Assembly (NCBI RefSeq): GCF_030812255.1 | Contig: NZ_JAUSSH010000022.1 | Span: forward strand, 1-55,862 | Origin: Paeniglutamicibacter psychrophenolicus | GTDB taxonomy: Bacteria; Actinomycetota; Actinomycetes; Actinomycetales; Micrococcaceae | DNA length: 55,862 nucleotides | Direction of reading: 5' to 3' | Notes under the pieces: generated by a model | Told to the model about the DNA's origin: nothing | What the model saw: only the letters and a program-made list of their open reading frames with translations | Databases searched by the model: none | In this document: positions 30,928 through 46,261 of the stretch, piece after piece | Position numbering within the stretch: position 1 is the first letter of the stretch | How the letters are laid out: every line of letters begins with the position of its first letter | Translations under genes and position numbers: made by a program

Positions 30928-31664
30928 GGCTGCCGCAACGCCAGCCACGGCCGGGCCCACCATGGGCCGGAAGGGGGCAGGCCTTGTCGGCCGGGCTCCT
31001 TGCCGCTTTGAAGCGGGGTCTGGTGTCGAGTGGTGATAAGCCGGATGCAGATTTCACCTGCAGTCGATTGCGTGTTCCAGGAGGTAGCTGAGCAAGCAGC
31101 GTTGCGTAGCTGATGTTTTGAAAGGGGCTCGCGATTGTGGTTCACAGCTTCCAAGTTCCAACGTCACGCGCGCGGCATGGCCCGGACACGGTTTGGTTCG
31201 TCAGATGTGACAATCTCGGGAAGACTTTCCCGCCGACTGCTGGCCCGCTCATCGCGGATGAAAGGCCATAAATGGCGGACATTCCTTGGCAACTTCGATG
31301 TCTTGCATGTCGCGGTGGGAGCGGCGGGACCCGGAAGAGGCCACCGAACCTGTCGTGGTGAGCTGGGGTGAACCTGGTTGCCGAGGTGGCCCGGCCGGTG
31401 CACGGGGTCATGAAGGACCCCCCCGAGATTCCGTGGAAGCATCGCAATTTGTGTTCACGACTAATTCTCAGTCCCACCCTTTGGGATTCGCCATGGACCG
31501 CGGTGCTCCTTGTGGAGCCGGGATTTGGACAGGCGGGATCAAACGCTGGGAGTTCCCTGGAAAGGGTGAATGTCGTGCCTGTCCAACGCCAAAATATGAG
31601 GTAGATTCCTTTCGGCGCTGTAATGCGCATTCGCTCGCACTCTTTTCTAATTTCTGGGGGAAAC
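30928..31664. other. Intergenic region, no recognisable gene
   Basis: About 740 bases between two genes for exported proteins. A gggccca/tgggcc hairpin near 30950-30970 may end the lipoprotein transcript. Short open frames on both strands have no ribosome-binding site or family likeness. Confidence 0.4.
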
Positions 31665-33110
31665 TTGAACCGTCTGAGACCAATTGCTGCCGCGGTTGCA
31701 GCTGTATTTGCACTGGGGCTCGTGAGCGCAACACCTGCCGCTGCCGCCGCGCCGCCGCCGGCCGGGTGCAAGTTCGAGTTCAGCGACACCCTGTACTGTC
31801 CTACCGCGACAGACAAGATCACCGATCTGAGCAAATACAGCTCGGTCAAGTACCTGACCCTTGGGGATGGATTCGACTACTCGTACTGGTCCGGATATGC
31901 CAAAACCAAGTCGACCATCACTCGCCTGCCCAAGCTGCCGCCGAAGTTGGAGTCGCTCACCGTCATCTCGAACAAATTCACGAACCTCTCAAACATCACC
32001 AGTGCACCACTGTTGGTTGATCTCGATATTCGAAGCACGAACGTCTTTCCTTCGCTTGCTCCCGCGGCCAAGCTGACACGGCTCAAGTCCTTCAACTACG
32101 ACGGGGCAGGCAACGCCAATCTTTCGCCGCTGGCCAAGATCAAGGCGCTGCGTTCGGTGGAAGTGAGTGCGATGTCGAATCGCACATCTCCCAAAATCAC
32201 TGTGGGTTCCTACCAAAACGTGGGGTCCATTGTCGGCATCAATGGCAAGAAGCTCAAGCCGATATCCGTTCGAAACACCGGCGTGGTCTTCGGCGGGGGA
32301 AAGAACAAAAAGCCCGTCATCGGCAGCGACGCTCGCGTCAAGCTCGGCCAAGTTGGATTCTACGAGGTGGATTGGAAGACATCCTCCAAGCCAACGGGAT
32401 TCGCACACCTGAACAAATACAAGGTCGAGGGCCTGAAATCCATTACCGGGTATGACTACGTTCCCTGGAAGACCAACAAGAAGCTTTTTGCCTGGATTGG
32501 CGGCGACATGGTTGTCGGGAATGAACTTTGGGCCAACATGTCCGGGACAGGCAAGAAGAGCGGGAACGGGAGCTCTCCGTATTTCCTGGAAGGATTCCAG
32601 TGGATGCGCAACGGCAAAGCCATCAAGGGCGCCACGGAGCGAAACTACACACTCAGAAACGCTGACGCCGGCAAGAAGATCAGCGTCAAGGTCACCGACA
32701 AGGTCGGTGACATCCAACTGATGAACGTTTCGGGCCAGGGCTGGTACCCGGTCTCCAAGGTCCTGAAGTCCAACAAGGTTGTGCTGAAGTCAATCAAGAA
32801 CACGAAATACCCCACCATCAAGGGCTCCCCGCGTGTTGGTAAGAAAATCATGTCAACCAAGGGCAGTTGGACCGGTTCTCCGACCAAGTTCAAGTACCAG
32901 TGGTACCGCTCCAACATGACGATCAACCACGCCATGAAGGGCAACTGGTTCTACTCGGTCAAGCCCATCAAGGGTGCCACCAAATCCACCTATGTCCCGA
33001 CTAAGGCAGACAACGGTCGCAGGCTCCAACTGAAGGTCACCGCCACGCGAAAAGGCTCGAAGACAGCCTCCGAAACGAGCCATTTCACGGACTTCGTTTA
33101 CAGGCCGTGA
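31665..33110 (+). CDS. Secreted protein with LRR-like and Ig-like repeats
   Basis: A 481-residue exported protein. It begins with a Sec signal peptide (LRPIAAAVAAVFALGLV, probable cleavage after ATPAAA). Residues about 40-185 contain leucine-rich-like repeats such as LTLGDGF, LESLTVISNKFTNLSNI and LVDLDIRSTNVF. From about 290 there are two copies of an actinobacterial Ig-like module, each with a tryptophan core and then IKGAT: FQWMRNGKAIKGATERNY and, near the end, KYQWYRS with IKGATKSTYVPTKADNGR. No anchor is seen, so it is probably secreted or held to the wall non-covalently. The TTG at 31665 has GGGGGA just upstream; an ATG at 31623 without one is the alternative. Its partner is unknown. 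Confidence 0.75.
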   Translation: MNRLRPIAAAVAAVFALGLVSATPAAAAAPPPAGCKFEFSDTLYCPTATDKITDLSKYSSVKYLTLGDGFDYSYWSGYAKTKSTITRLPKLPPKLESLTVISNKFTNLSNITSAPLLVDLDIRSTNVFPSLAPAAKLTRLKSFNYDGAGNANLSPLAKIKALRSVEVSAMSNRTSPKITVGSYQNVGSIVGINGKKLKPISVRNTGVVFGGGKNKKPVIGSDARVKLGQVGFYEVDWKTSSKPTGFAHLNKYKVEGLKSITGYDYVPWKTNKKLFAWIGGDMVVGNELWANMSGTGKKSGNGSSPYFLEGFQWMRNGKAIKGATERNYTLRNADAGKKISVKVTDKVGDIQLMNVSGQGWYPVSKVLKSNKVVLKSIKNTKYPTIKGSPRVGKKIMSTKGSWTGSPTKFKYQWYRSNMTINHAMKGNWFYSVKPIKGATKSTYVPTKADNGRRLQLKVTATRKGSKTASETSHFTDFVYRP

Positions 33111-33349: not shown

Positions 33350-34360
33350 TCAGCTGCCGCCATAGTAGGCGGCAAGTCGTTCCAATCCCTCGTCAAGGCT
33401 TACCGTCGGAGTCCAGTCCAGCACCTCGCGAGTTTCGCGCTGGTCGAACCAGTGCGCGGTGGAGAGCTGTTCGGCCAGGAACTTGGTCATGGGCGGTTCG
33501 TCGTGCACCAGGTTCCGGGACCCGGCCGCGAGCCACAACCGCTCAATGACCGAGCCCGCGCCGCGCGCAAGCCAGCCCGGGACGCTCATCCGCGGTGCCG
33601 GCACGCCGCCAGCCCGGCAGATCCCGGAGATCAGCTCGCCCACGGGGCGGGGCTCGCCGTTGGTGACCACCAGGGCGCGCCCGTGGGCGTGTTCCATGCG
33701 CTCGAGACCGCGCACGATGGCACCGGCGGCATTGTCGATGTAGGTGGTGTCTATCAGCGCGGCACCGTGGTCCAGCAACGGAAGCCTGCCGTCCCGGGCC
33801 CGCTCGATCACGCGTTCCACCAGCTGGGTGTCGCCCGGACCCCAGACCACGTGCGGCCTGATGGCCGTCACCCGGAAACCCGGTGCGTCCTGGGCCAGCG
33901 CGTTGTGCTCGGCGGCTGCCTTTGACCGGGCGTAGTTCCCGCGGGCCCGGTCTGGATCGGCAACCCCGGCCCCGGCTCCGGCCAGCGGCTCGCCGAAGTG
34001 GGCGACCGAGGGGGAGGAGACAAACACGAAGTCCCTGGCTCCGGCGTCCTTGGCCGCTTCGAGCAGGGTTTTGGTTCCGGTGATGTTGGTGGCCACGAAG
34101 TCGTGCCAGGAACCGGTGAAGGAGACCTTGGCCGCCAGGTGGATGACCGCGTTCATGCCGTGCACGGCAAGCCGGACCGCGGCAGGGTCGGTCAACGAGC
34201 CGAGCACCTCGTCCGTGGCTGCCGTGGAGGCCCGGCGCTGGAAGGTGCGCACGTGGTGCCCCTTGGCCCGCAGCAGCGCGGCCACGGCCCCGCCGAGCAG
34301 CCCGCTGGCCCCGGTGACCAGCACGCGGCGCTGGGACTCGAGATTCAGCTCGCTGCTCAT
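33350..34360 (-). CDS. oleD: 2-alkyl-3-oxoalkanoate reductase OleD
   Basis: OleD reduces the beta-keto acid made by OleA to a 2-alkyl-3-hydroxy acid with NADPH in long-chain olefin synthesis. The 336-residue protein is a short-chain dehydrogenase/epimerase: RVLVTGASGLLGG nucleotide-binding loop near the start, VIHLAAKVSF, FVSSPSV, and the catalytic YARSK. The ATG at 34360 overlaps the stop of oleBC as ATGA, so it is translationally coupled and is the last gene of the operon. The earlier frame opening at 34402 is not needed. Confidence 0.9.
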   Translation of the reverse strand: MSSELNLESQRRVLVTGASGLLGGAVAALLRAKGHHVRTFQRRASTAATDEVLGSLTDPAAVRLAVHGMNAVIHLAAKVSFTGSWHDFVATNITGTKTLLEAAKDAGARDFVFVSSPSVAHFGEPLAGAGAGVADPDRARGNYARSKAAAEHNALAQDAPGFRVTAIRPHVVWGPGDTQLVERVIERARDGRLPLLDHGAALIDTTYIDNAAGAIVRGLERMEHAHGRALVVTNGEPRPVGELISGICRAGGVPAPRMSVPGWLARGAGSVIERLWLAAGSRNLVHDEPPMTKFLAEQLSTAHWFDQRETREVLDWTPTVSLDEGLERLAAYYGGS

Positions 34361-36945
34361 GGGTTGCGGATCCTTCCGCCAGCTAACGTGGTGGTGGCCC
34401 ATGCGGCCAGTGCGGCCCGGTCGATCTTGGAATTGTGCCGGATATCGGTGGGCAGCACCGGGACCACCATCACCGCGGAGACCTTGGTCCCGGTGCGGGC
34501 GACCGCGGCACGCACGGCCTGGGCCAGTGCCTCGGGTGCGGGGGCCGCGTGACGGGCCGGCGGCACAGCTTCCATGACCACCACGGAGGCCTGGGTCCCC
34601 GTTGGGCCCACTCCGACCAGTGCGGCACGTCCCGCGCCGGTCACGGATTCGGCGGCCTGCTCGGCCGCCACCGGGGTCTTGGGCCCGGTGGGGGTGTTGA
34701 GCACGTGGCCCAGCCGTCCCTCGACCCAGAGGCGTCCGGCGTCATCGAGGTGTCCCACGTCCCCGGTGCGGTGCCAGCCGGGGATCGAGGTGCTGAGCTG
34801 TTCGGTGATCCAGAGCCTGTCGTAGCGGTCCTTCACGTGCGGGGCACGGACCAGGATCTCACCGGTGAGGTTGGGCGTTGTTTCCGGCGTGTCGCCCGCT
34901 TTCCCGCTTGCGTCCAGGGGCGCAATGGCAACCTGCGCCCCGGCGACCGGGGTGCCCACGCAGACCCCGTTGCCCGATCCGGCGGCACGGATGGACTCCA
35001 GGTCGATGTCGGTGACCGGAAGGGCCTCGGTCATGCCGTAGGGGGTGTGTACCCGGGCATTGGGGACCAGGTGTTGGACCTTGGCGAGCAAGGGCTCGGG
35101 GATCGGGGCCCCGGCCGAAAGCATCAGCGAGATGCCTTCCAGGACAAGGCGCTGGGATGCGTCCAAGGAATCCCGGGTTTCCAGGACATTGGCCAGGGCC
35201 GCGGGGGAGGCAAACACCGTGGTGGCATCCACGGCGGCGGCGGCATCCGCCAGGGCGCCGGCGGTGAGCGTGCGCGGTGCGGTGACATCCATGTCCGGGG
35301 TCACCGAGGTGGCACCCAGGGCCGGGCCCAGCAGCGCGAACGGGGCGAACCCGGCCACCAGTGCCGAGCCGGCCTTCAGGTCGTAGGTCTCGCGCAGGGT
35401 GTCCCGCATCGCGGCCAGCTGCCGGTGGGTGTACACCACGCCCTTGGCCGGTCCGGTGGAGCCGGAGGTGAAGAGCACCGCGGCGTCCGCGTCCGGGTCC
35501 GCCGGGGTGAAGTCCGTGAGCGTTGGTGTTGCGTGGTTTCCCGCCTCGAGCAGCTCCGGGATGGTGTGTGCCACGCCGAGCAGCTTGCGCTTGGCGCTTG
35601 GCATGTCCTCGACGGCGATCCGGGTCCCGGGCCAGCCCAGGAACCTGGCGCCGGTCAGCGCCCGGTCGATTCCAATGAGGTAGCTCGGTCCCGCGCCGCG
35701 GATGGCCCGTCCCAGTCCCTGGGTGCCAAGTCCGGCGTCGGCCACGACAATGACCGCGCCCAGGCGCAGGCAGGCATAGATCAGCGAGGTCAGCTCGATG
35801 CCCGGGGGCACCAGCAGGTTCACCCGGTCCCCTGGCTTGACCCCGATCCCGGCCAGGCCGCCGGCCAATGCGTTGACCCGTTGGCCCAGCTGCGACCAGG
35901 ACAGGGACCTCGGAGGGTTGATGTCAACGACCGCGGTGCTGTCGTCCTCGGTGCGCTCGTCGAGCTCGGCCAGCATCGGCCGGTAGGCGGCCAGGGCCTC
36001 GGCCCGGTGGGCGGTTTTCGACTCCGTGTTGTGGCCAAGGAAGTCAAAGACCGGGGTGGCGATGTCGCGGTCCTCGGGCAGCAGGTGGCCGGCTCCCTCG
36101 AAACGGTGGACCGCGGCGTGGGGGAGCCGGCCCACCAGATCGCGCAGGTAGCGATCGGAGAACACCGGGTCCTTCGGGCCCCAGAGCAGCAGGGCAGGGA
36201 CCTTCAGGGATTTGATGCCCTCGGCGATTGCTTCGAGCGCGGGCCGGCTGGGGTGGTCCTCGGTGAAGGGGATGTCGGCCACGAAGTTGCCGACCCCGGT
36301 GCGCCGGTTGGCGTTGGTGTAGGGGGCCATGAAGGCCTTCCGGACCTCCGGCTTCAGGGCCGGGTGGGCCAGCGAGTGTGTGGTGCGCAGGAACGCATCG
36401 GTGGATTTGGTTCCCCAGCCGTGCACCGCCGGGTGGGAAGCCAGGCGCAGGGCGGCGGGCAGCTCGAAACCGGCCGGGTGAACCGCGGTGTTGGTGAGCA
36501 CCACGTTGGCCAGCTGCTCCCGGTGTGCCAAGGCCCAGCCCAGGGAGATGAGTCCTCCCCAGTCGTGTCCCACCGTGGTGACCGGGCCGGTGATCCCCAG
36601 CGTGGTGGTCAGGTCGTCGAGGTCGTTGACCCGGTCCGCGAGCCGGCGGAACACGCCGGTGCGGGCGGAAAATCCCATGTCCAGCTGGTCCACTGCCACC
36701 ACGCGCCAGGGCAGTTCGTGGGCGGAGACGTGGTTCAACAGGCCGCGCCAGAGGTAGGACCAGGTGGGGTTGCCGTGCACGCACAGCAGGGTGCCCACCG
36801 GTTCGATGCCCTGGTCCCTGAGCTCGGAGTCGTTGTCCAGCAGGTGCCACTGGTGGCTGGTGCCCGGTGCATCCACGACCGAGGTGGAGGGAACCTGGAC
36901 GCGGCGGGAGTACCTGCGATCGACGCCGGGGAAGATCTCGGTCAC
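34357..36945 (-). CDS. oleBC: OleBC fusion: beta-lactone decarboxylase and beta-lactone synthetase
   Basis: An 862-residue natural fusion of two steps of olefin synthesis. Residues about 20-300 are the alpha/beta-hydrolase OleB, which decarboxylates the beta-lactone to the alkene: LLCVHGNPTWSYLWRG, the nucleophile region VTTVGHDWGG with aspartate instead of serine as in haloalkane-dehalogenase relatives, and a late histidine in EGAGHLLPED. From about 320 on is the AMP-forming OleC, which closes the beta-lactone: LFTSGSTGPAKGVVYTH, TPYGMTEALPVTD and WHRTGDVGHLDD. The GTG at 36945 overlaps the oleA stop (GTGA). The fused form is known from Micrococcus and Arthrobacter. Confidence 0.92.
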   Translation of the reverse strand: MTEIFPGVDRRYSRRVQVPSTSVVDAPGTSHQWHLLDNDSELRDQGIEPVGTLLCVHGNPTWSYLWRGLLNHVSAHELPWRVVAVDQLDMGFSARTGVFRRLADRVNDLDDLTTTLGITGPVTTVGHDWGGLISLGWALAHREQLANVVLTNTAVHPAGFELPAALRLASHPAVHGWGTKSTDAFLRTTHSLAHPALKPEVRKAFMAPYTNANRRTGVGNFVADIPFTEDHPSRPALEAIAEGIKSLKVPALLLWGPKDPVFSDRYLRDLVGRLPHAAVHRFEGAGHLLPEDRDIATPVFDFLGHNTESKTAHRAEALAAYRPMLAELDERTEDDSTAVVDINPPRSLSWSQLGQRVNALAGGLAGIGVKPGDRVNLLVPPGIELTSLIYACLRLGAVIVVADAGLGTQGLGRAIRGAGPSYLIGIDRALTGARFLGWPGTRIAVEDMPSAKRKLLGVAHTIPELLEAGNHATPTLTDFTPADPDADAAVLFTSGSTGPAKGVVYTHRQLAAMRDTLRETYDLKAGSALVAGFAPFALLGPALGATSVTPDMDVTAPRTLTAGALADAAAAVDATTVFASPAALANVLETRDSLDASQRLVLEGISLMLSAGAPIPEPLLAKVQHLVPNARVHTPYGMTEALPVTDIDLESIRAAGSGNGVCVGTPVAGAQVAIAPLDASGKAGDTPETTPNLTGEILVRAPHVKDRYDRLWITEQLSTSIPGWHRTGDVGHLDDAGRLWVEGRLGHVLNTPTGPKTPVAAEQAAESVTGAGRAALVGVGPTGTQASVVVMEAVPPARHAAPAPEALAQAVRAAVARTGTKVSAVMVVPVLPTDIRHNSKIDRAALAAWATTTLAGGRIRNP

Positions 36946-37967
36946 CAGGCAAGCTCCATCATGGCGGTGTTCAGGCCCGAGCCGACACCCATGCACAGCA
37001 CCCGGTCACCGGGCTTCAACGTCTTGGCTTCCTGGGAAAGCGTCATCGGCAGCGAAGCCGGCCCGACATTGCCCCACTTGGGGAACGTGATCGGCACCCG
37101 GTCCCGGACCAGGCCCACGGCCTTGATGATGGCATTGGTGTAGGAATTGGATACCTGGTGGGTCACGTAGCGATCCATTGACCGCCAGTTCCAGCCCGCT
37201 TGGTGCGCCTCGTCCCAGGCGTTGACCACCAATTCCAGTCCGTTGTCCAGCAGCCCCTTGGTGTCGGTGTACATGCCGTTCAGGCCGCCCACACACAGTT
37301 CGTGGTGTTCGGTCCCGGCGCGCGAGACGCCGCCCACGATCCGGTGGGCGCCGGGATGCGCGTCGGCCGGGCCGATCACCGCGGCGGCGGCACCCGAGCC
37401 CAGAGTCAGGGTGGCGAACTGGTTCAGGTAGTCCTCGCGGGTCGAATCCTCGGCGTTGAGCCGGGCAAAGGTGGTTTCCTGGGTGGTCTGGGCGTCCTCG
37501 CCGGCCACCACCAGCGCGTACTTGATCTGCCCGGAGTCGATCATGTTCGCGGCCAGGGTCATGCCGTTGACAAAGCCCAGGCAGGCATTGGTGATGTCAA
37601 AGTTCATCGCCGAGGAAGGCAGGCCGAGATCGTTGTGCACCTTCGAGGCAACCGAGGGCTCGAGGTTGCGCCGGGTCACCGAGGTGTTGATCAGCAGGCC
37701 GATCTGGCCCGCCTCGATGCCGGCCTGGGCCATGGCCTTTCCGCCGGCCTCCACCGCTGCGTCGTCGAAGCTGGTGCCCTCGGACCACCAACGGCGTTCC
37801 ACGACACCGGAGACGCGTTCCAGCAGTTTCTTGGACAGGCGCAACCGCTTGAGGCTGGGGGCCAGGCGTTCGTCGAATTCGGCCGAACTCAGGACCCTGG
37901 GGGCCTGCACGCTGGTGACGGCCAAAAGGGCCGCGTTTTCGTGCCTAAACGTTGCATTGCCGTTCAA
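36942..37967 (-). CDS. oleA: OleA, acyl-CoA head-to-head condensing thiolase
   Basis: OleA joins two fatty acyl-CoAs into a beta-keto acid, the first step of olefin synthesis. The 341-residue protein belongs to the ketoacyl-synthase III/thiolase superfamily. The active-site cysteine is in FDITNACLGFVNGM near residue 125, and LGSGAAAAVIG and the C-terminal GVGSGLNTAMMELAW fit the fold. A stop codon lies two codons upstream of the TTG at 37967, so this TTG is the earliest possible start and gives the family-like N-terminus GNATFRHENAALL. First gene of oleA-oleBC-oleD. Confidence 0.92.
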   Translation of the reverse strand: MNGNATFRHENAALLAVTSVQAPRVLSSAEFDERLAPSLKRLRLSKKLLERVSGVVERRWWSEGTSFDDAAVEAGGKAMAQAGIEAGQIGLLINTSVTRRNLEPSVASKVHNDLGLPSSAMNFDITNACLGFVNGMTLAANMIDSGQIKYALVVAGEDAQTTQETTFARLNAEDSTREDYLNQFATLTLGSGAAAAVIGPADAHPGAHRIVGGVSRAGTEHHELCVGGLNGMYTDTKGLLDNGLELVVNAWDEAHQAGWNWRSMDRYVTHQVSNSYTNAIIKAVGLVRDRVPITFPKWGNVGPASLPMTLSQEAKTLKPGDRVLCMGVGSGLNTAMMELAW

Positions 37968-38280: not shown

Positions 38281-39039
38281 CTAAGCGGCAGGCAACGAGC
38301 CCCGCGCAAGGAATAGGGCACCCACCGCCATGGCCACCGCCGCGGCTGCGGTCGACACCGCCATCACCGTCTCGGCCCACCGGGCGTCATAGGCCTTGAG
38401 CGCAATCAGTGGCGAGATCACGTAGATGGCCGCGAGGTAGCCCGCGAAGCCGGTGCCGAGCAGGAACAGGCATGCGGCGCCGGCGGCCGGCAGCCTGACG
38501 CGCCACAGGGCAGCAAGGATCAGCGGAGACACCACCCCGGCCACGAGCACGCCCCAGGACAGCCCCGTGGCATCCGGCATCCCGGACGCGGCTCCGGCGA
38601 GGCCGGAAATGAGCGCATGGGACCCGATCACGGCGAAGGAGGCCGCGAAGAGGACGGCAAGCAGTGCCTCGCATGTGGCAGCGGCGATCCCGACGATCCT
38701 GAGGTGGTCCACCGTTGGATCCGGCAGGAACATGACGCCGGCGGCCATGGCCAGGACCCCGATCGCCTGCAGCAGCATGGCGAGACCGAACAGCTGCGCG
38801 GTCGTGCCCAGCGGGACCCAGTTCTCCACGGGGAAGTAGTAGTCGTAGCGGTGGTTTTCGATCAACAGGCCCCTGGGCCCACGGGCGCCGGCGGGGACCA
38901 CCCAGCGCTGCAGGACCGCGACCAGCTGCACGAGGCAGGAGACCAGGAACAGGGCGGCGGCAATGGACAGCCACAGGATCCTGGCCCTGCGAAAACGCAG
39001 GGCTTTGAGGCCCGTTCCCAATGGCTTGCTGCCCGACAT
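38281..39039 (-). CDS. Six-pass membrane protein, paralogue 1 of 4
   Basis: A 252-residue membrane protein of unknown function, one of four adjacent homologues. About six hydrophobic segments. Between segments 1 and 2 lies a likely outside loop with family residues: LVAVLQRWV, then ENHRYDYYFP and WVPLGTTAQLFG, followed by LLQAIGVLAMAAGV. The fifth segment carries LPAAGAACLFLLGTGFAGYL. The ATG at 39039 lies six bases after a -10 box, so the message is probably leaderless and the upstream opening at 39066 is not used. The cytoplasmic ends are short and basic. I do not recognise the family. Confidence 0.75.
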   Translation of the reverse strand: MSGSKPLGTGLKALRFRRARILWLSIAAALFLVSCLVQLVAVLQRWVVPAGARGPRGLLIENHRYDYYFPVENWVPLGTTAQLFGLAMLLQAIGVLAMAAGVMFLPDPTVDHLRIVGIAAATCEALLAVLFAASFAVIGSHALISGLAGAASGMPDATGLSWGVLVAGVVSPLILAALWRVRLPAAGAACLFLLGTGFAGYLAAIYVISPLIALKAYDARWAETVMAVSTAAAAVAMAVGALFLARGSLPAA

Positions 39040-39045
39040 GGCCCA

Positions 39046-39073
39046 ACCGTAGCAACGTGCCCGCACGAGTCAA
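39046..39073 (-). promoter_or_regulatory. Leaderless-type promoter of paralogue 1
   Basis: On the minus strand: TTGACT (39073-39068), 16 bases, TACGGT (39051-39046), six bases, ATG. The same layout precedes the other three paralogues. Confidence 0.8.
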
Positions 39074-39137
39074 TGGTTGCGCTGGTTTCCGCCGCCGGGC
39101 GAGGCTGGCCGGGGCCCGGATCAATCCGGTTCGGACA

Positions 39138-39908
39138 CTATGCGGGCTCCACGCGGGCGGCCGCGCGCCGAACCACGTCCCTGGCGCCGAAGGCCGCGGC
39201 CACCGCCGCGGCGGCGGTGGATGCGGCGACAACCGTCTCGGTGAAGCGCGCGGTGTCGTGGGACATGCCAAAGAAGAGCGGTGCCACCATGTAGGTGGCC
39301 AAGAGGTAGCCCGCCATGGTCGATCCGATCAGGAACACGCACGCAACCCCGGCCGCCGGCAACCTGTTTCCCCAGAACAGGGCCAAGGCCACCAGCCCCA
39401 CCAGCGCGACCAAGAGCATCGGCCAGAACACCCCCGGTCCGATCTCCAGCCCGGTAGGCGTCCCGTTGAGCCCGGCGACCAAGACCAATCCGCCATGGAG
39501 CGTGAAGGCGGCCGCCACCAGGAGCACCAAAACGACTTCGACCACGGCGATGCCAACGGTGGCGGCCCGGCCGAACACCTTTGACGCGGCCGGCAGCAGC
39601 ATGACCGCCAGCGCCATCGCGAGCAGGCCGAGCACCTGGATGAGCAAACTCGCTCCGAGGAGCTGGGCGGCGTTGCCGATGGGCTCCCAGCCCTCAAACG
39701 GCAGGAAGTAGTCATAGGCGTGGTCTTCGACCGAGCGGTCAGTCGTCCCCCGGGTGCCGCTGAAGGTGACCCAGCGCTGCAACGAGGCGATCAGCTGCAG
39801 CGTAAAGGACACCAGGAGCAGCACCGTGGCGGCGAGCATGAATAGGAACGATGTCTTGCGGAAGCGCACTTCCCGGGCATACCCACCGGTTTCGTTTAAC
39901 CCCAACAT
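39138..39908 (-). CDS. Six-pass membrane protein, paralogue 2 of 4
   Basis: A 256-residue homologue of the neighbouring genes. First loop: LQLIASLQRWV, SVEDHAYDYFLPFEGWEPIG, then AAQLLGASLLIQVLGLLAMA. Late segment: LPAAGVACVFLIGSTMAGYL. It ends with a long alanine-rich helix. The DH and DY pairs and the QRW of the loop are shared with paralogues 1 and 4. The ATG follows a -10 box by six bases. Function unknown; the conserved polar loop suggests ligand or partner binding outside the membrane, which is inference. Confidence 0.75.
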   Translation of the reverse strand: MLGLNETGGYAREVRFRKTSFLFMLAATVLLLVSFTLQLIASLQRWVTFSGTRGTTDRSVEDHAYDYFLPFEGWEPIGNAAQLLGASLLIQVLGLLAMALAVMLLPAASKVFGRAATVGIAVVEVVLVLLVAAAFTLHGGLVLVAGLNGTPTGLEIGPGVFWPMLLVALVGLVALALFWGNRLPAAGVACVFLIGSTMAGYLLATYMVAPLFFGMSHDTARFTETVVAASTAAAAVAAAFGARDVVRRAAARVEPA

Positions 39909-39914
39909 GGCCCA

Positions 39915-39942
39915 ACCGTAGCAATGTGCCTGCAGGAGTCAA
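39915..39942 (-). promoter_or_regulatory. Leaderless-type promoter of paralogue 2
   Basis: Minus strand: TTGACT (39942-39937), 16 bases, TACGGT (39920-39915), six bases, ATG at 39908. Confidence 0.8.
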
Positions 39943-39977
39943 TGGTTGCCCGGGCAGCCGGCCAAGGTCCCCGGTGC

Positions 39978-40691
39978 TCAGTCGGTAGGGCTGGCCCTGC
40001 GCACCTGCGAACCGACTGCGAAAAGCATCGAGATGCCGGCCGCGGCTGTGGTTGCAATGACCACCATTTCGGCGACCGGGAAGAACCCGTCGCCGGCAAA
40101 CATGAAGAGCAGGGGCGTGATGACGATGGAGGCCACGAAATCGCCCAGCACGGTGGAGCCGAGCAGGAACAGGCACCCGATCATGGCCGGCAGCGAGCTG
40201 CCCCGCCACCAGATGGCCGCGGCCACCAGGCCGACCAAGGAGAGAAGAAATATCATCCGCACCGGCAACTCTGGATCCATCATGAGGGTCTGGATGCCGG
40301 TGGAACCCTGGTCCCCGGCGAGCATTGCGTGGATTCCGAATGAGACGGCCACGAGGACCACTGCCACCGACCCGGCAACCACTGCCTTGCGTTTTTGCGC
40401 CACCCGCGGCAGTGCCAGCACCCCCGCGGCCATCGCCAGCATCCCGAGCACCTTGAGCCAGTTGGCCACACTGTACAGCCGAGCCGTGGCGGCGAACGGA
40501 TCCTGAGGGTCGACCCCCGGCCCGTCGCCGGACAGCTCGCCGTTGAAGACCTCCCAGCCCTGGATCGAGGCCCGCTGCTGTATGACGGCCGAGGCGAGAA
40601 ACAGTAGGGCGGCTCCGATCAGGAGCGTGAACGAAGAAGTGCGGAAGCCGACGCTCCGCGTGACCCGGGACGAATCGTTGACGGCCGACAT
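39978..40691 (-). CDS. Six-pass membrane protein, paralogue 3 of 4
   Basis: A 237-residue member of the same group and the most divergent. It keeps ASIQGWEVF, KVLGMLAMAAGVLALPRVA and the late segment LPAMIGCLFLLGSTVLG, but the loop lacks the DH/DY residues of the other three and reads VDPQDPFAATARLY. It may therefore have lost or changed the shared ligand site. The ATG follows a -10 box by six bases like the others. Function unknown. Confidence 0.72.
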   Translation of the reverse strand: MSAVNDSSRVTRSVGFRTSSFTLLIGAALLFLASAVIQQRASIQGWEVFNGELSGDGPGVDPQDPFAATARLYSVANWLKVLGMLAMAAGVLALPRVAQKRKAVVAGSVAVVLVAVSFGIHAMLAGDQGSTGIQTLMMDPELPVRMIFLLSLVGLVAAAIWWRGSSLPAMIGCLFLLGSTVLGDFVASIVITPLLFMFAGDGFFPVAEMVVIATTAAAGISMLFAVGSQVRRASPTD

Positions 40692-40697
40692 GGCCCC

Positions 40698-40725
40698 ACC
40701 CTAGCCAGCGCACCGCCGAAGTCAA
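40698..40725 (-). promoter_or_regulatory. Leaderless-type promoter of paralogue 3
   Basis: Minus strand: TTGACT (40725-40720), 16 bases, TAGGGT (40703-40698), six bases, ATG at 40691. Confidence 0.8.
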
Positions 40726-40760
40726 TGGCAGTGGACCTGCGCCGGTGCGTGGGCTTGGTC

Positions 40761-41507
40761 TTATCCCGCGCGCCGGTAGCGGCGCACCACGGTGCCGGCT
40801 GCGAGGACCATGGCCAGGGCGGCCGCGGCGCTCGTGCCGGCGACCACGCTTTCGAGCCAGGGGGTCGTGTCGTGCGAGACGTAGCCGGCGATCATGGCAG
40901 CGACCGTGAAATTGGCGATCGCGGCCCCGAACATGTTTGAACCCAGCAGGAACACGCACGCCACCGATGCCGCCTTCGACATGCCCGCCCACAGCCACGC
41001 CAGGGCGATCATGCCGCCGAGCCCGCCCCAGACCATCAGCGGGAGCAACACCCGGGAGTGCTGCAGGTCGGAGGGAGCGGCGTTGGTCCCCGAGATCAGG
41101 GCATGGGCGCCCAGGACCGCGAAAGCGGCGGCAACCAGGAGTGCGAGCACCGGCTCGGCGATGATGCCGATCTTGTTGGGTGCCACCCGGGGCACGGCCA
41201 GCACGCCCAGGGCCATGGCCAGGACACCGACGGCCTGCAGCAGCGTGCCCGCCCCGAAGAGCTGGGCCGCTGTCCCGATCGGTTCCCAGGGATCGGCGGG
41301 GAAGCTGTAGTCCAATTGGTGGTCTTCGACCGAGAGCTCATAGCCGGGCCGTTGTCCCCGCAGCCCAACCCAGCGCTGGATCGAGGCCAGGTGCTGCAGC
41401 ACCGCCGAGGCCAGGAACAGCACGGCGGCCGCAAGGAACCCGAAGACCGAGGCCCTGGGGAGGCGAACGGCCAGTTCGGACTGGCCTGTTTTGCTGGTGG
41501 CCGACAT
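40761..41507 (-). CDS. Six-pass membrane protein, paralogue 4 of 4
   Basis: A 248-residue homologue with hydrophobic segments at roughly 20-42, 83-108, 115-140, 150-175, 180-210 and 215-240. The loop after segment 1 has LQHLASIQRWVGLRGQR, SVEDHQLDYSFPADPWEPIG, then AAQLFGAGTLLQAVGVLAMA. The late segment reads ASVACVFLLGSNMFGAA. It is closest to paralogue 2 in the loop. Its own promoter borders a 116-bp repeat that carries a broken DUF1003 end. Function unknown. Confidence 0.75.
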   Translation of the reverse strand: MSATSKTGQSELAVRLPRASVFGFLAAAVLFLASAVLQHLASIQRWVGLRGQRPGYELSVEDHQLDYSFPADPWEPIGTAAQLFGAGTLLQAVGVLAMALGVLAVPRVAPNKIGIIAEPVLALLVAAAFAVLGAHALISGTNAAPSDLQHSRVLLPLMVWGGLGGMIALAWLWAGMSKAASVACVFLLGSNMFGAAIANFTVAAMIAGYVSHDTTPWLESVVAGTSAAAALAMVLAAGTVVRRYRRAG

Positions 41508-41513
41508 GGCACC

Positions 41514-41541
41514 ACAGTAGCTGTGCCGTGCGGCAAGTCAA
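41514..41541 (-). promoter_or_regulatory. Leaderless-type promoter of paralogue 4
   Basis: Minus strand: TTGACT (41541-41536), 16 bases, TACTGT (41519-41514), six bases, ATG at 41507. The -35 and spacer are part of the 116-bp repeat whose other copy at 46146 has lost the -10. Confidence 0.8.
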
Positions 41542-41636
41542 TGGTGGTGCTGGCGGTTCACCGGCCCGGGGTGCCCGGGGTCGTTCCGGGCTTGCCAAGG
41601 CGCTGCAGCTCGGTGCGCAGCTCCTCGATCATGGCC
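41521..41636. repeat. 116-bp direct repeat, left copy
   Basis: Aligns without gaps to 46146-46261; about 85 percent identical by eye, with the last roughly 40 bases identical. It contains the spacer and -35 of the paralogue 4 promoter and the 3' end of a DUF1003 gene. The two copies bracket about 4.5 kb of IS5-type remnants and the diiron/CDGSH/ligase genes. Confidence 0.88.
41558..41636 (-). pseudogene. Truncated 3' end of a DUF1003 gene
   Basis: Translates to MIEELRTELQRLGKPGTTPG and a stop at the same place as the DUF1003 gene at 46183-46554, then breaks off at 41637. Only about 25 codons remain. Confidence 0.82.
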
Positions 41637-41699: not shown

Positions 41700-42385
41700 C
41701 TCCCGCTAATGCGTCGGCAATCCCCGGCGGGACCTGCCCGAACACTTCGGTTCGAGGATGAGCTTGTGGAAGGGCCACCGCCGGTACGCCGCCGACTGCA
41801 TCTGGAACATCGTCTCCTGGAACACCGTGGTGGCGGCCATGCTGGGCCAGGCCGAGAGTCGCGGCCTGATCGACTGGGGCGTGTCGGTGGACTCCGCGAT
41901 CAACCGTGCCGACCAGCACTGCACAACCTCCCGCGCCGCGCAGGGGAGCGTGTCGATGGACAAGAATATGCCCGGCGAGCCACCTGGCCGCGCCATCGGC
42001 ACGTCCCGCAGCGGCCTGGGGATCAAGATCCACTGACTGGTCGACGGGAAGCAGCGCCGGTTGGTGATGCCGATCTGACCCGGGCAGCCCGATGATTTCC
42101 CGATGTTCGAAAACCTCCTGGACGCCCTGAGGGCCAAGGCCGCCTTGCCTGGCCGCTCAGGACCCGTCCGAAGACGACCCTGGCCGACAAGGCCTAATCC
42201 TCGAAGGACAACCGGGAATACCTCCGGGACCGCGGCGTCCAATGAGTGATCCCCGAAAAGGCGACCGGGCAGGACTCAAGCATCGCAATGAAAGTCGAGC
42301 GCAGCTTCAACGCCCTGCGGCAGTGGCACGGCATGGCCACCCGGTGTGCCTGGTCCGCTCTGGCCTATCGCTGAGCTGTCTACCT
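41700..42385 (+). pseudogene. IS5-family (IS427-type) transposase remnant 1
   Basis: A multiply frameshifted DDE transposase of the IS5 family. Pieces in order: DLPEHFG-like remains near 41737-41757, WKGHRRYAADCIWN near 41766-41807, GVSVDSAINRADQHCTTSRA near 41879-41938, then a run matching 'LGIKIH' near 42015, MFENLLDALRAKA near 42102-42140 in another frame, and VERSFNALRQWHGMATR near 42294-42344 ending in WSALAYR and a stop. At least three frames are needed, so it is inactive. Same strand as remnant 2 at 45800. Confidence 0.82.
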
Positions 42386-46130: not shown

Positions 46131-46145
46131 CGCGAGACCTCCTGG

Positions 46146-46261
46146 CTGTGCCGCGCGGCAAATCAACGGTGGTGGTGGAGGCTCACCGGCCTGGGCTGCC
46201 CGGGATCGTTCCGGGGCTGCCCAGGCGCTGCAGCTCGGTGCGCAGCTCCTCGATCATGGCC
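46146..46261. repeat. 116-bp direct repeat, right copy
   Basis: Partner of 41521-41636. Here it is the 3' end of an otherwise longer DUF1003 gene plus a decayed promoter spacer and -35 (TTGATT); the -10 has been replaced by IS5-type sequence. Confidence 0.88.

Follow-up and report, generated by a model that had tools for sequence, protein, structure and literature searches.

A tandem array of four paralogous membrane protein genes, each with its own predicted leaderless promoter, in Paeniglutamicibacter psychrophenolicus

Introduction

Leaderless genes of Actinobacteria are among the closest described counterparts of the locus reported here. The leaderless signal is reported to lie about 12 bases before the start codon and to take the form TANNNT in high-GC Actinobacteria (PMC3160421), and a quarter of Mycobacterium tuberculosis genes are reported as leaderless (PMC3898074). 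We analysed a 55,862-nt stretch of P. psychrophenolicus DNA (contig NZ_JAUSSH010000022.1; "the window" throughout) from a genome of 4,567,409 bases, in which four adjacent genes, here called P1 to P4, encode related membrane proteins and each carry such a signal in the same setting. The nearest named relatives of the host are Arthrobacter sp. AQ5-05 and Arthrobacter sp. C2, followed by Paeniglutamicibacter gangotriensis.

For an unnamed protein family, the array provides a first anatomy: two outside motifs, a degenerate paralogue and a survey of its range. Searches of the literature listed no relevant account of such an array, of an Arthrobacter ole cluster together with a membrane protein, or of olefins or gene duplication in Paeniglutamicibacter.

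Results

Four adjacent paralogues

The array consists of four minus-strand genes lying head to tail in the order P4-P3-P2-P1 (41507-38281), with intergenic gaps of 69, 69 and 98 bases for P4-P3, P3-P2 and P2-P1, respectively. P4 (40761..41507) encodes 248 amino acids (aa), P3 (39978..40691) 237 aa, P2 (39138..39908) 256 aa and P1 (38281..39039) 252 aa. The initial annotation of the window had described four adjacent homologous membrane protein genes, and this was confirmed: all four are minus-strand open reading frames (ORFs), and P2, P3 and P4 are 43%, 32% and 42% identical to P1. The automatic ORF of P1 begins at an upstream GTG (39066), but we prefer the ATG at 39039 because the promoter layout described below fits it. 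Mis-assembly was ruled out by the presence of the same four genes in a complete chromosome (CP042428.1). P4 had no match in the phage or plasmid collection at an E value of 0.001, and a phage or plasmid origin was set aside.

One promoter layout at every copy

Each of the four genes is preceded by TTGACT, a spacer of 16 bases, a TANNNT hexamer and six further bases that lead directly to the ATG. In the P4 promoter block (41505..41541, minus strand) the -35 box lies at 41541-41536 and the -10 box, TACTGT, at 41519-41514; the blocks of P3 (40689..40725), P2 (39906..39942) and P1 (39037..39073), on the same strand, have TAGGGT, TACGGT and TACGGT at the latter position. A scan of the window for the pattern TTGACT-N16-TASKGT-N6-ATG gave exactly four matches, and 100 shuffles gave none. 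Its looser form, TTGACT-N16-TANNNT-N6-ATG, has four matches in the whole genome, every one of them before an array gene, and a reversed control pattern has none. Chance repetition is thereby ruled out, and the observation that one promoter recurs four times with the same spacing stands. Among the 40 called ORFs of the window, TANNNT was found at -11 to -15 in only four (P2, P3, P4 and ORF 948-2174); P1 is absent from this list because the ORF caller chose its upstream GTG.

The same arrangement was seen in relatives. TANNNT starts exactly 12 bases before the ATG in all 20 copies from the genus and in nine of ten from a second genus (g45), that is, in 29 of 30 copies from the two genera together, and in three of the nine remaining rows, four of which begin at the start of the match only and not at a true start codon. 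TTGAC with a spacer of 15-18 bases is present in 20/20 genus copies, where the spacer is always 16 bases, in 5/10 g45 copies and in 0/9 of the other rows. Given this pattern of conservation, the -10 box and its distance from the ATG are the oldest part of the promoter, and the TTGACT box is fixed in the genus. Because the literature gives the same -10 position in Actinobacteria, we regard the layout as one of a known and common kind. That published position and the 29 of 30 copies support the earlier proposal that the start codon lies at or next to the transcription start; we think it very probable that transcription begins at the A of each ATG, which would make all four messages leaderless.

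Housekeeping-type promoters of Actinobacteria follow the consensus TTGACN/TANNNT with about 16-18 bases between the boxes. All four array promoters conform to it, with TTGACT, 16 bases and TANNNT, and from their sequences they look like housekeeping promoters. A scan with the stricter Escherichia coli consensus gave no promoter match. We found no support for a special sigma factor. Co-regulation by one sigma factor, as first suggested, thus comes down to an ancestral promoter of the housekeeping type that the four genes share. The accompanying statement that the genes do not form an operon is not established: each has its own promoter pattern, but the gaps between them are short, and the scan found no terminator-like site between array genes on the coding strand. 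Its one such site lies inside P3 (40659-40641). Since the genes are close, head to tail and lack intergenic coding-strand terminator-like sites, read-through from one to the next is possible.

Comparison of the promoters suggests how the copies arose. When the window paralogues are compared with one another, their hexamers match at 10 to 12 of 12 positions (0.83-1.00), while agreement across the 16-base spacer is 0.25 for the three P4 pairs, 0.44 for P3-P1 and P3-P2, and 0.81 for P1-P2; the promoters of P1 and P2 are 0.91 identical, against 43% for their proteins. Across species, the 34-base promoter block is 0.76-1.00 identical to that of the window, whereas farther upstream P4 and the P1 of AQ5-05 have diverged to 0.24-0.45. 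This contrast is not general, as P1, P2 and P3 compared with C2 are at least 0.94 identical throughout. These comparisons show that in every copy promoter and gene were duplicated together, and that the promoter predates the duplications.

Distribution and origin of the array

Family members were found in 7 of 15 genomes of the genus, 24 of 345 in the sample of the taxonomic family, 6 of 396 in the order sample and 4 of 394 in the class sample (5 of 394 with a broader profile); these counts include the window genome, and the samples overlap and are not additive. A search for related loci retained 10 loci out of 291 candidate stretches. The protein family is therefore rare and patchy in Actinomycetes, and mostly single copy. 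A search for tandem arrays elsewhere, as had been proposed, did recover the full arrangement, P4-P3-P2-P1 followed by oleA, in four genomes of the genus: the window genome, C2 (G003), AQ5-05 (G004) and G007. The other genus carriers hold two copies (G008), one copy (G001), or one copy and a short fragment (G006).

In a tree of 37 rows, with 14 of its 34 inner branches open, P1, P2 and P4 (four rows each) and P3 (three rows) each form one clade with support of 100/100. The only copy of P. gangotriensis pairs with P4 (91/90), and the second copy of G008 with P3 (85/87). A tandem expansion is recognised by neighbouring copies that fall into separate clades, each spanning several species. Together with the promoter layout in all 20 genus copies, these clades support the suggestion of repeated duplication with the promoter kept, and on this comparative evidence we interpret the array as a lineage-specific tandem expansion of an undescribed actinobacterial family. 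We have little doubt about this description of the array, its promoters and the family.

The constant gene order in four genomes would also suit an arrangement in which P1 to P4 form one mixed complex, be it a channel, a transporter or a receptor, and P3 is a structural subunit of it. The common promoter layout, and hence perhaps a similar output from each gene, points the same way, as does P3, which in its model holds the six-helix pattern without the putative site described below. However, most carriers outside the genus have a single copy, so a mixed complex is not required for the basic function, and we consider this arrangement distinctly unlikely.

P1, P2 and P4 are intact in all four array genomes and P3 in three; in the draft genome of AQ5-05 the P3 orthologue is split into two frames. 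Between the window and G007, the ratio of nonsynonymous to synonymous substitution rates (dN/dS) is 0.44 for P1, 0.40 for P2, 0.63 for P3 and 0.38 for P4. Over the computed pairs it ranges from 0.33-0.45 (P1), 0.35-0.66 (P2), 0.63-0.73 (P3) and 0.29-0.43 (P4), and is below 1 in every one. These ratios indicate purifying selection on the array, relaxed in P3, the fastest evolving copy. A gene-dosage expansion followed by drift, in which all copies share an unimportant or conditional job and P3 is heading towards a pseudogene, would account for the high ratio of P3, for its broken orthologue in AQ5-05 and for the broken copies or fragments seen in other genomes. Against it, P1 (88.5-95.6% identity between array genomes, computed pairs) and P4 (85.5-90.3%) are well conserved, and the promoter layout is intact in all 16 array copies, even before the broken P3. 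We regard dosage and drift as unlikely.

A family without a described relative

The initial annotation knew no family for these proteins, and the searches bear this out. P1-P4 gave nothing above cut-off in Pfam (best E 0.041) or NCBIfam (best E 0.07) and zero hits in PHROGs. A wider query set of 20 relatives, including P1, P2 and P4 and leaving out P3, was compared with Pfam, NCBIfam and PADLOC, counting as a named family any score above the family cut-off or any E below 0.001; the best values were 0.0039, 0.0042 and 0.021, respectively. For exosortase, DUF3624 and Trp_oprn_chp the weak matches were in each case due to a single one of the 20 members and were discarded.

Structural comparison gave the same picture. 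Foldseek searches of the PDB with the P4 and P3 models returned 0 matches at E <= 0.001, and the best hits of a profile search for solved relatives (E 0.0035 and 0.007) were to unrelated kinds of protein. We attribute to chance the weak matches to farnesyl pyrophosphate synthase (3zcd) and a calcium channel gamma subunit (7lep), and likewise those to a 112-residue membrane protein (7qhm chain J) and a zinc antiporter (9jj3), whose alignments follow hydrophobic stretches.

Two conserved motifs on the predicted outer face

The six-pass topology first proposed is supported by structure predictions of the single proteins. AlphaFold2 models of P4 (15 sequences; mean predicted local distance difference test, pLDDT, 74.9) and P3 (18 sequences; mean pLDDT 76.5) each have six membrane-length helical segments, the fifth broken in two, with a shorter first loop in P3. 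We infer that the N and C termini are inside, which places the first and the last of the conserved loops on the outside. Charge counts over 36 of the 37 rows fit this orientation: loops 3 and 5, assigned to the outside, have only 0.1 and 0.4 lysine and arginine residues (K+R) per protein, and loop 1 is acidic, with 5.4 aspartate and glutamate residues against 1.4 K+R.

These loops carry two newly described outside-facing motifs, RW...EDHxxDY...PW in the first and SHDTxPWxE in the last. Both are intact in P4, as EDHQLDYSFPADPWEPIG (41274..41327, minus strand; residues 61-78) and SHDTTPWLE (40851..40877, minus strand; residues 211-219). When the residues of P4 are ranked by conservation, seven of the top 30 (R45, W46, E61, D66, Y67, D213 and E219) lie at or in these two loops. 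P2 has VEDHAYDY and SHDTARFTE; P1 has IENHRYDY and AYD-ARWAE, keeping the first motif and the second only in part. As first reported, QRW, the DH/DY pair (NH/DY in P1) and W-x-P-(I/L)-G are shared by P1, P2 and P4, and the third copy has lost the DH/DY part. P3 has QGW and lacks both EDHxxDY and the WxPxG block. The initial annotation missed that P3 has also lost most of the second motif, of which P and E remain in the window, C2 and G007, with W as well in G007. The second G008 copy has likewise lost motif 1 and the TxPW of motif 2, retaining HD and E.

The picture of a diversified loop needs to be revised accordingly in one respect: P3 did lose the first-loop motif, but P1, P2 and P4 keep it, and the alignment suggests one degenerate copy rather than four variants. 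Because the P3 rows and the second G008 copy lack motif 1 together with most or part of motif 2, we take this as a sign that the loops act together; whether they form a single site we would put at an even chance. Distant members L074 and L075, with L079 similar, have two cysteines in loop 1 between RW and QDH (for example RWWPAC...AC...QDH), which suggests a disulfide variant of the same loop.

Neighbouring genes in the genus

Directly downstream of the array, and also on the minus strand, lies a ketoacyl synthase III gene (36942..37967) which we take, from gene order and domains, to be oleA. It is followed by an oleBC-like fusion with alpha/beta hydrolase and AMP-binding domains (34357..36996, minus strand) and an oleD-like NAD-dependent epimerase/dehydrogenase gene (33350..34402, minus strand). 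In this olefin-type cluster (33350-37967), with its fused OleB-OleC-like protein, the oleA ORF opens at a TTG that lies within a stretch conserved in most of the genus; a predicted secreted protein of 495 aa (31623-33110) adjoins the cluster.

In all seven genus carriers oleA is preceded, on its own strand, by a family gene or array, and in G006 the short family fragment sits between the family gene and oleA. This could mean that the family serves the ole pathway, its members acting as partners at the membrane in placing, shielding or exporting long-chain olefins and having been duplicated to match several products. However, all 15 genus genomes have oleA and only seven have the family; in four of the eight non-carriers G6PD takes the place directly upstream of oleA; no oleA was found around family genes of other genera within the fetched stretches (9-17 kb); and acidic, outside motifs are not obviously suited to hydrocarbons. 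In view of the general presence of oleA and of G6PD in the same place, the link may be positional, and a role in the ole pathway is improbable.

On the other side of the array, a 117-base direct repeat (41520-41636 and 46145-46261, 90% identical) flanks a 4.6-kb block that encodes an iron-containing redox enzyme, a CDGSH protein and a glutamate-cysteine ligase. The block looks like an insertion between a DUF1003 gene and P4, and the repeat copy beside P4 covers the P4 -35 box. A short ORF (41758-42036), for which Pfam gave no hit, resembles part of an IS5-type transposase and is probably a remnant.

Neighbouring genes in other genera

Neighbours in other genera were read within the same fetched stretches. 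In g23, genes whose Pfam domains we take to be those of the EfeUOB system stand beside the family gene in three of four fetched loci (L113-L115, not L112); a distant family member is divergent to them, two in tandem in L114. The fifth g23 carrier, G207, has only a fragment. The ten g45 loci include Fur (4/10), CueP (3/10), glyoxalase (5/10) and PadR/UbiB (5/10) genes, and AAA/VWA genes adjoin the family gene in G086 and G312.

Discussion

We tentatively favour the following explanation, to which we give somewhat less than an even chance as a whole. Promoter and gene were duplicated together, with the promoter layout retained, and the housekeeping sigma factor would make four leaderless messages. 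The first and last conserved loops, both predicted to be outside, would join into a single site, acidic for the most part, on the outer face of the membrane, and this site may bind a divalent metal or another cation. P1, P2 and P4 would then be active variants of a protein for binding, uptake or sensing, and P3, which lacks the site, would be a degenerate partner or a regulator. A cation is preferred as ligand because of the metal-related neighbours in other genera (EfeUOB, Fur and CueP); a cation or metal ligand is nevertheless rather doubtful when judged on its own. A bolder version, in which the proteins are a new outside-facing, cation-binding class with three site-bearing variants and one siteless member held in fixed proportion by matched leaderless promoters, such as would suit a mixed receptor or uptake complex, is decidedly improbable.

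Several observations weigh against the favoured explanation. H63 and H212 are outside the 30 most conserved residues, and loop 1, taken as a whole, does not exceed the helices in conservation (mean entropy 1.95 versus 1.49-2.11). Loop 1 (residues 47-77) of the P4 model has a pLDDT under 50, and contact between the two loops is consequently not visible in it. The motifs are not always lost together, given the HD and E kept in the second G008 copy and the partial motif 2 of P1; moreover, because P3 and that copy group together in the tree, their losses may be one event. The metal-related neighbours are absent elsewhere, where AAA/VWA, PadR/UbiB, methyltransferase or ole genes occur instead, and they look like the legacy of two ancestral neighbourhoods. 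Finally, the promoter block of P3 compared with G007 (0.79) is not above the upstream sequence (0.70, 0.88).

Whatever the proteins do, the array is a clean natural experiment in soil-type bacteria: with one promoter layout repeated before every one of four neighbouring genes, it makes leaderless expression and division of labour between paralogues testable in parallel. Even if the proteins turn out to be ordinary, it is still a tidy case of promoter-plus-gene duplication.

The locus touches several known systems. With the oleA-oleBC-oleD cluster it shares an adjacent, co-oriented position in all seven genus carriers, but there is no homology between the two, the family is found without nearby oleA in other genera, and oleA occurs without the family in eight genus genomes. 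EfeUOB iron uptake, which handles a cation at the membrane, is a divergent neighbour in L113-L115; the family, however, has no Pfam match to FTR1, imelysin or DyP peroxidase, and no efe genes were found beside the window array. Tandem paralogue arrays built by lineage-specific duplication have adjacent homologues, separate clades and one degenerate member in common with P1-P4. Here, unlike in such arrays generally, each unit retains its own promoter, and the family is unnamed, with no solved relative in the searched libraries. With the leaderless actinobacterial genes of PMC3160421 and PMC3898074 the array genes share TANNNT about 12 bases upstream, an ATG start and no room for a Shine-Dalgarno sequence. 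Unlike typical genes of that kind, the array repeats a single arrangement of -35 box, spacer and -10 box before each of its four paralogues and has kept it across species.

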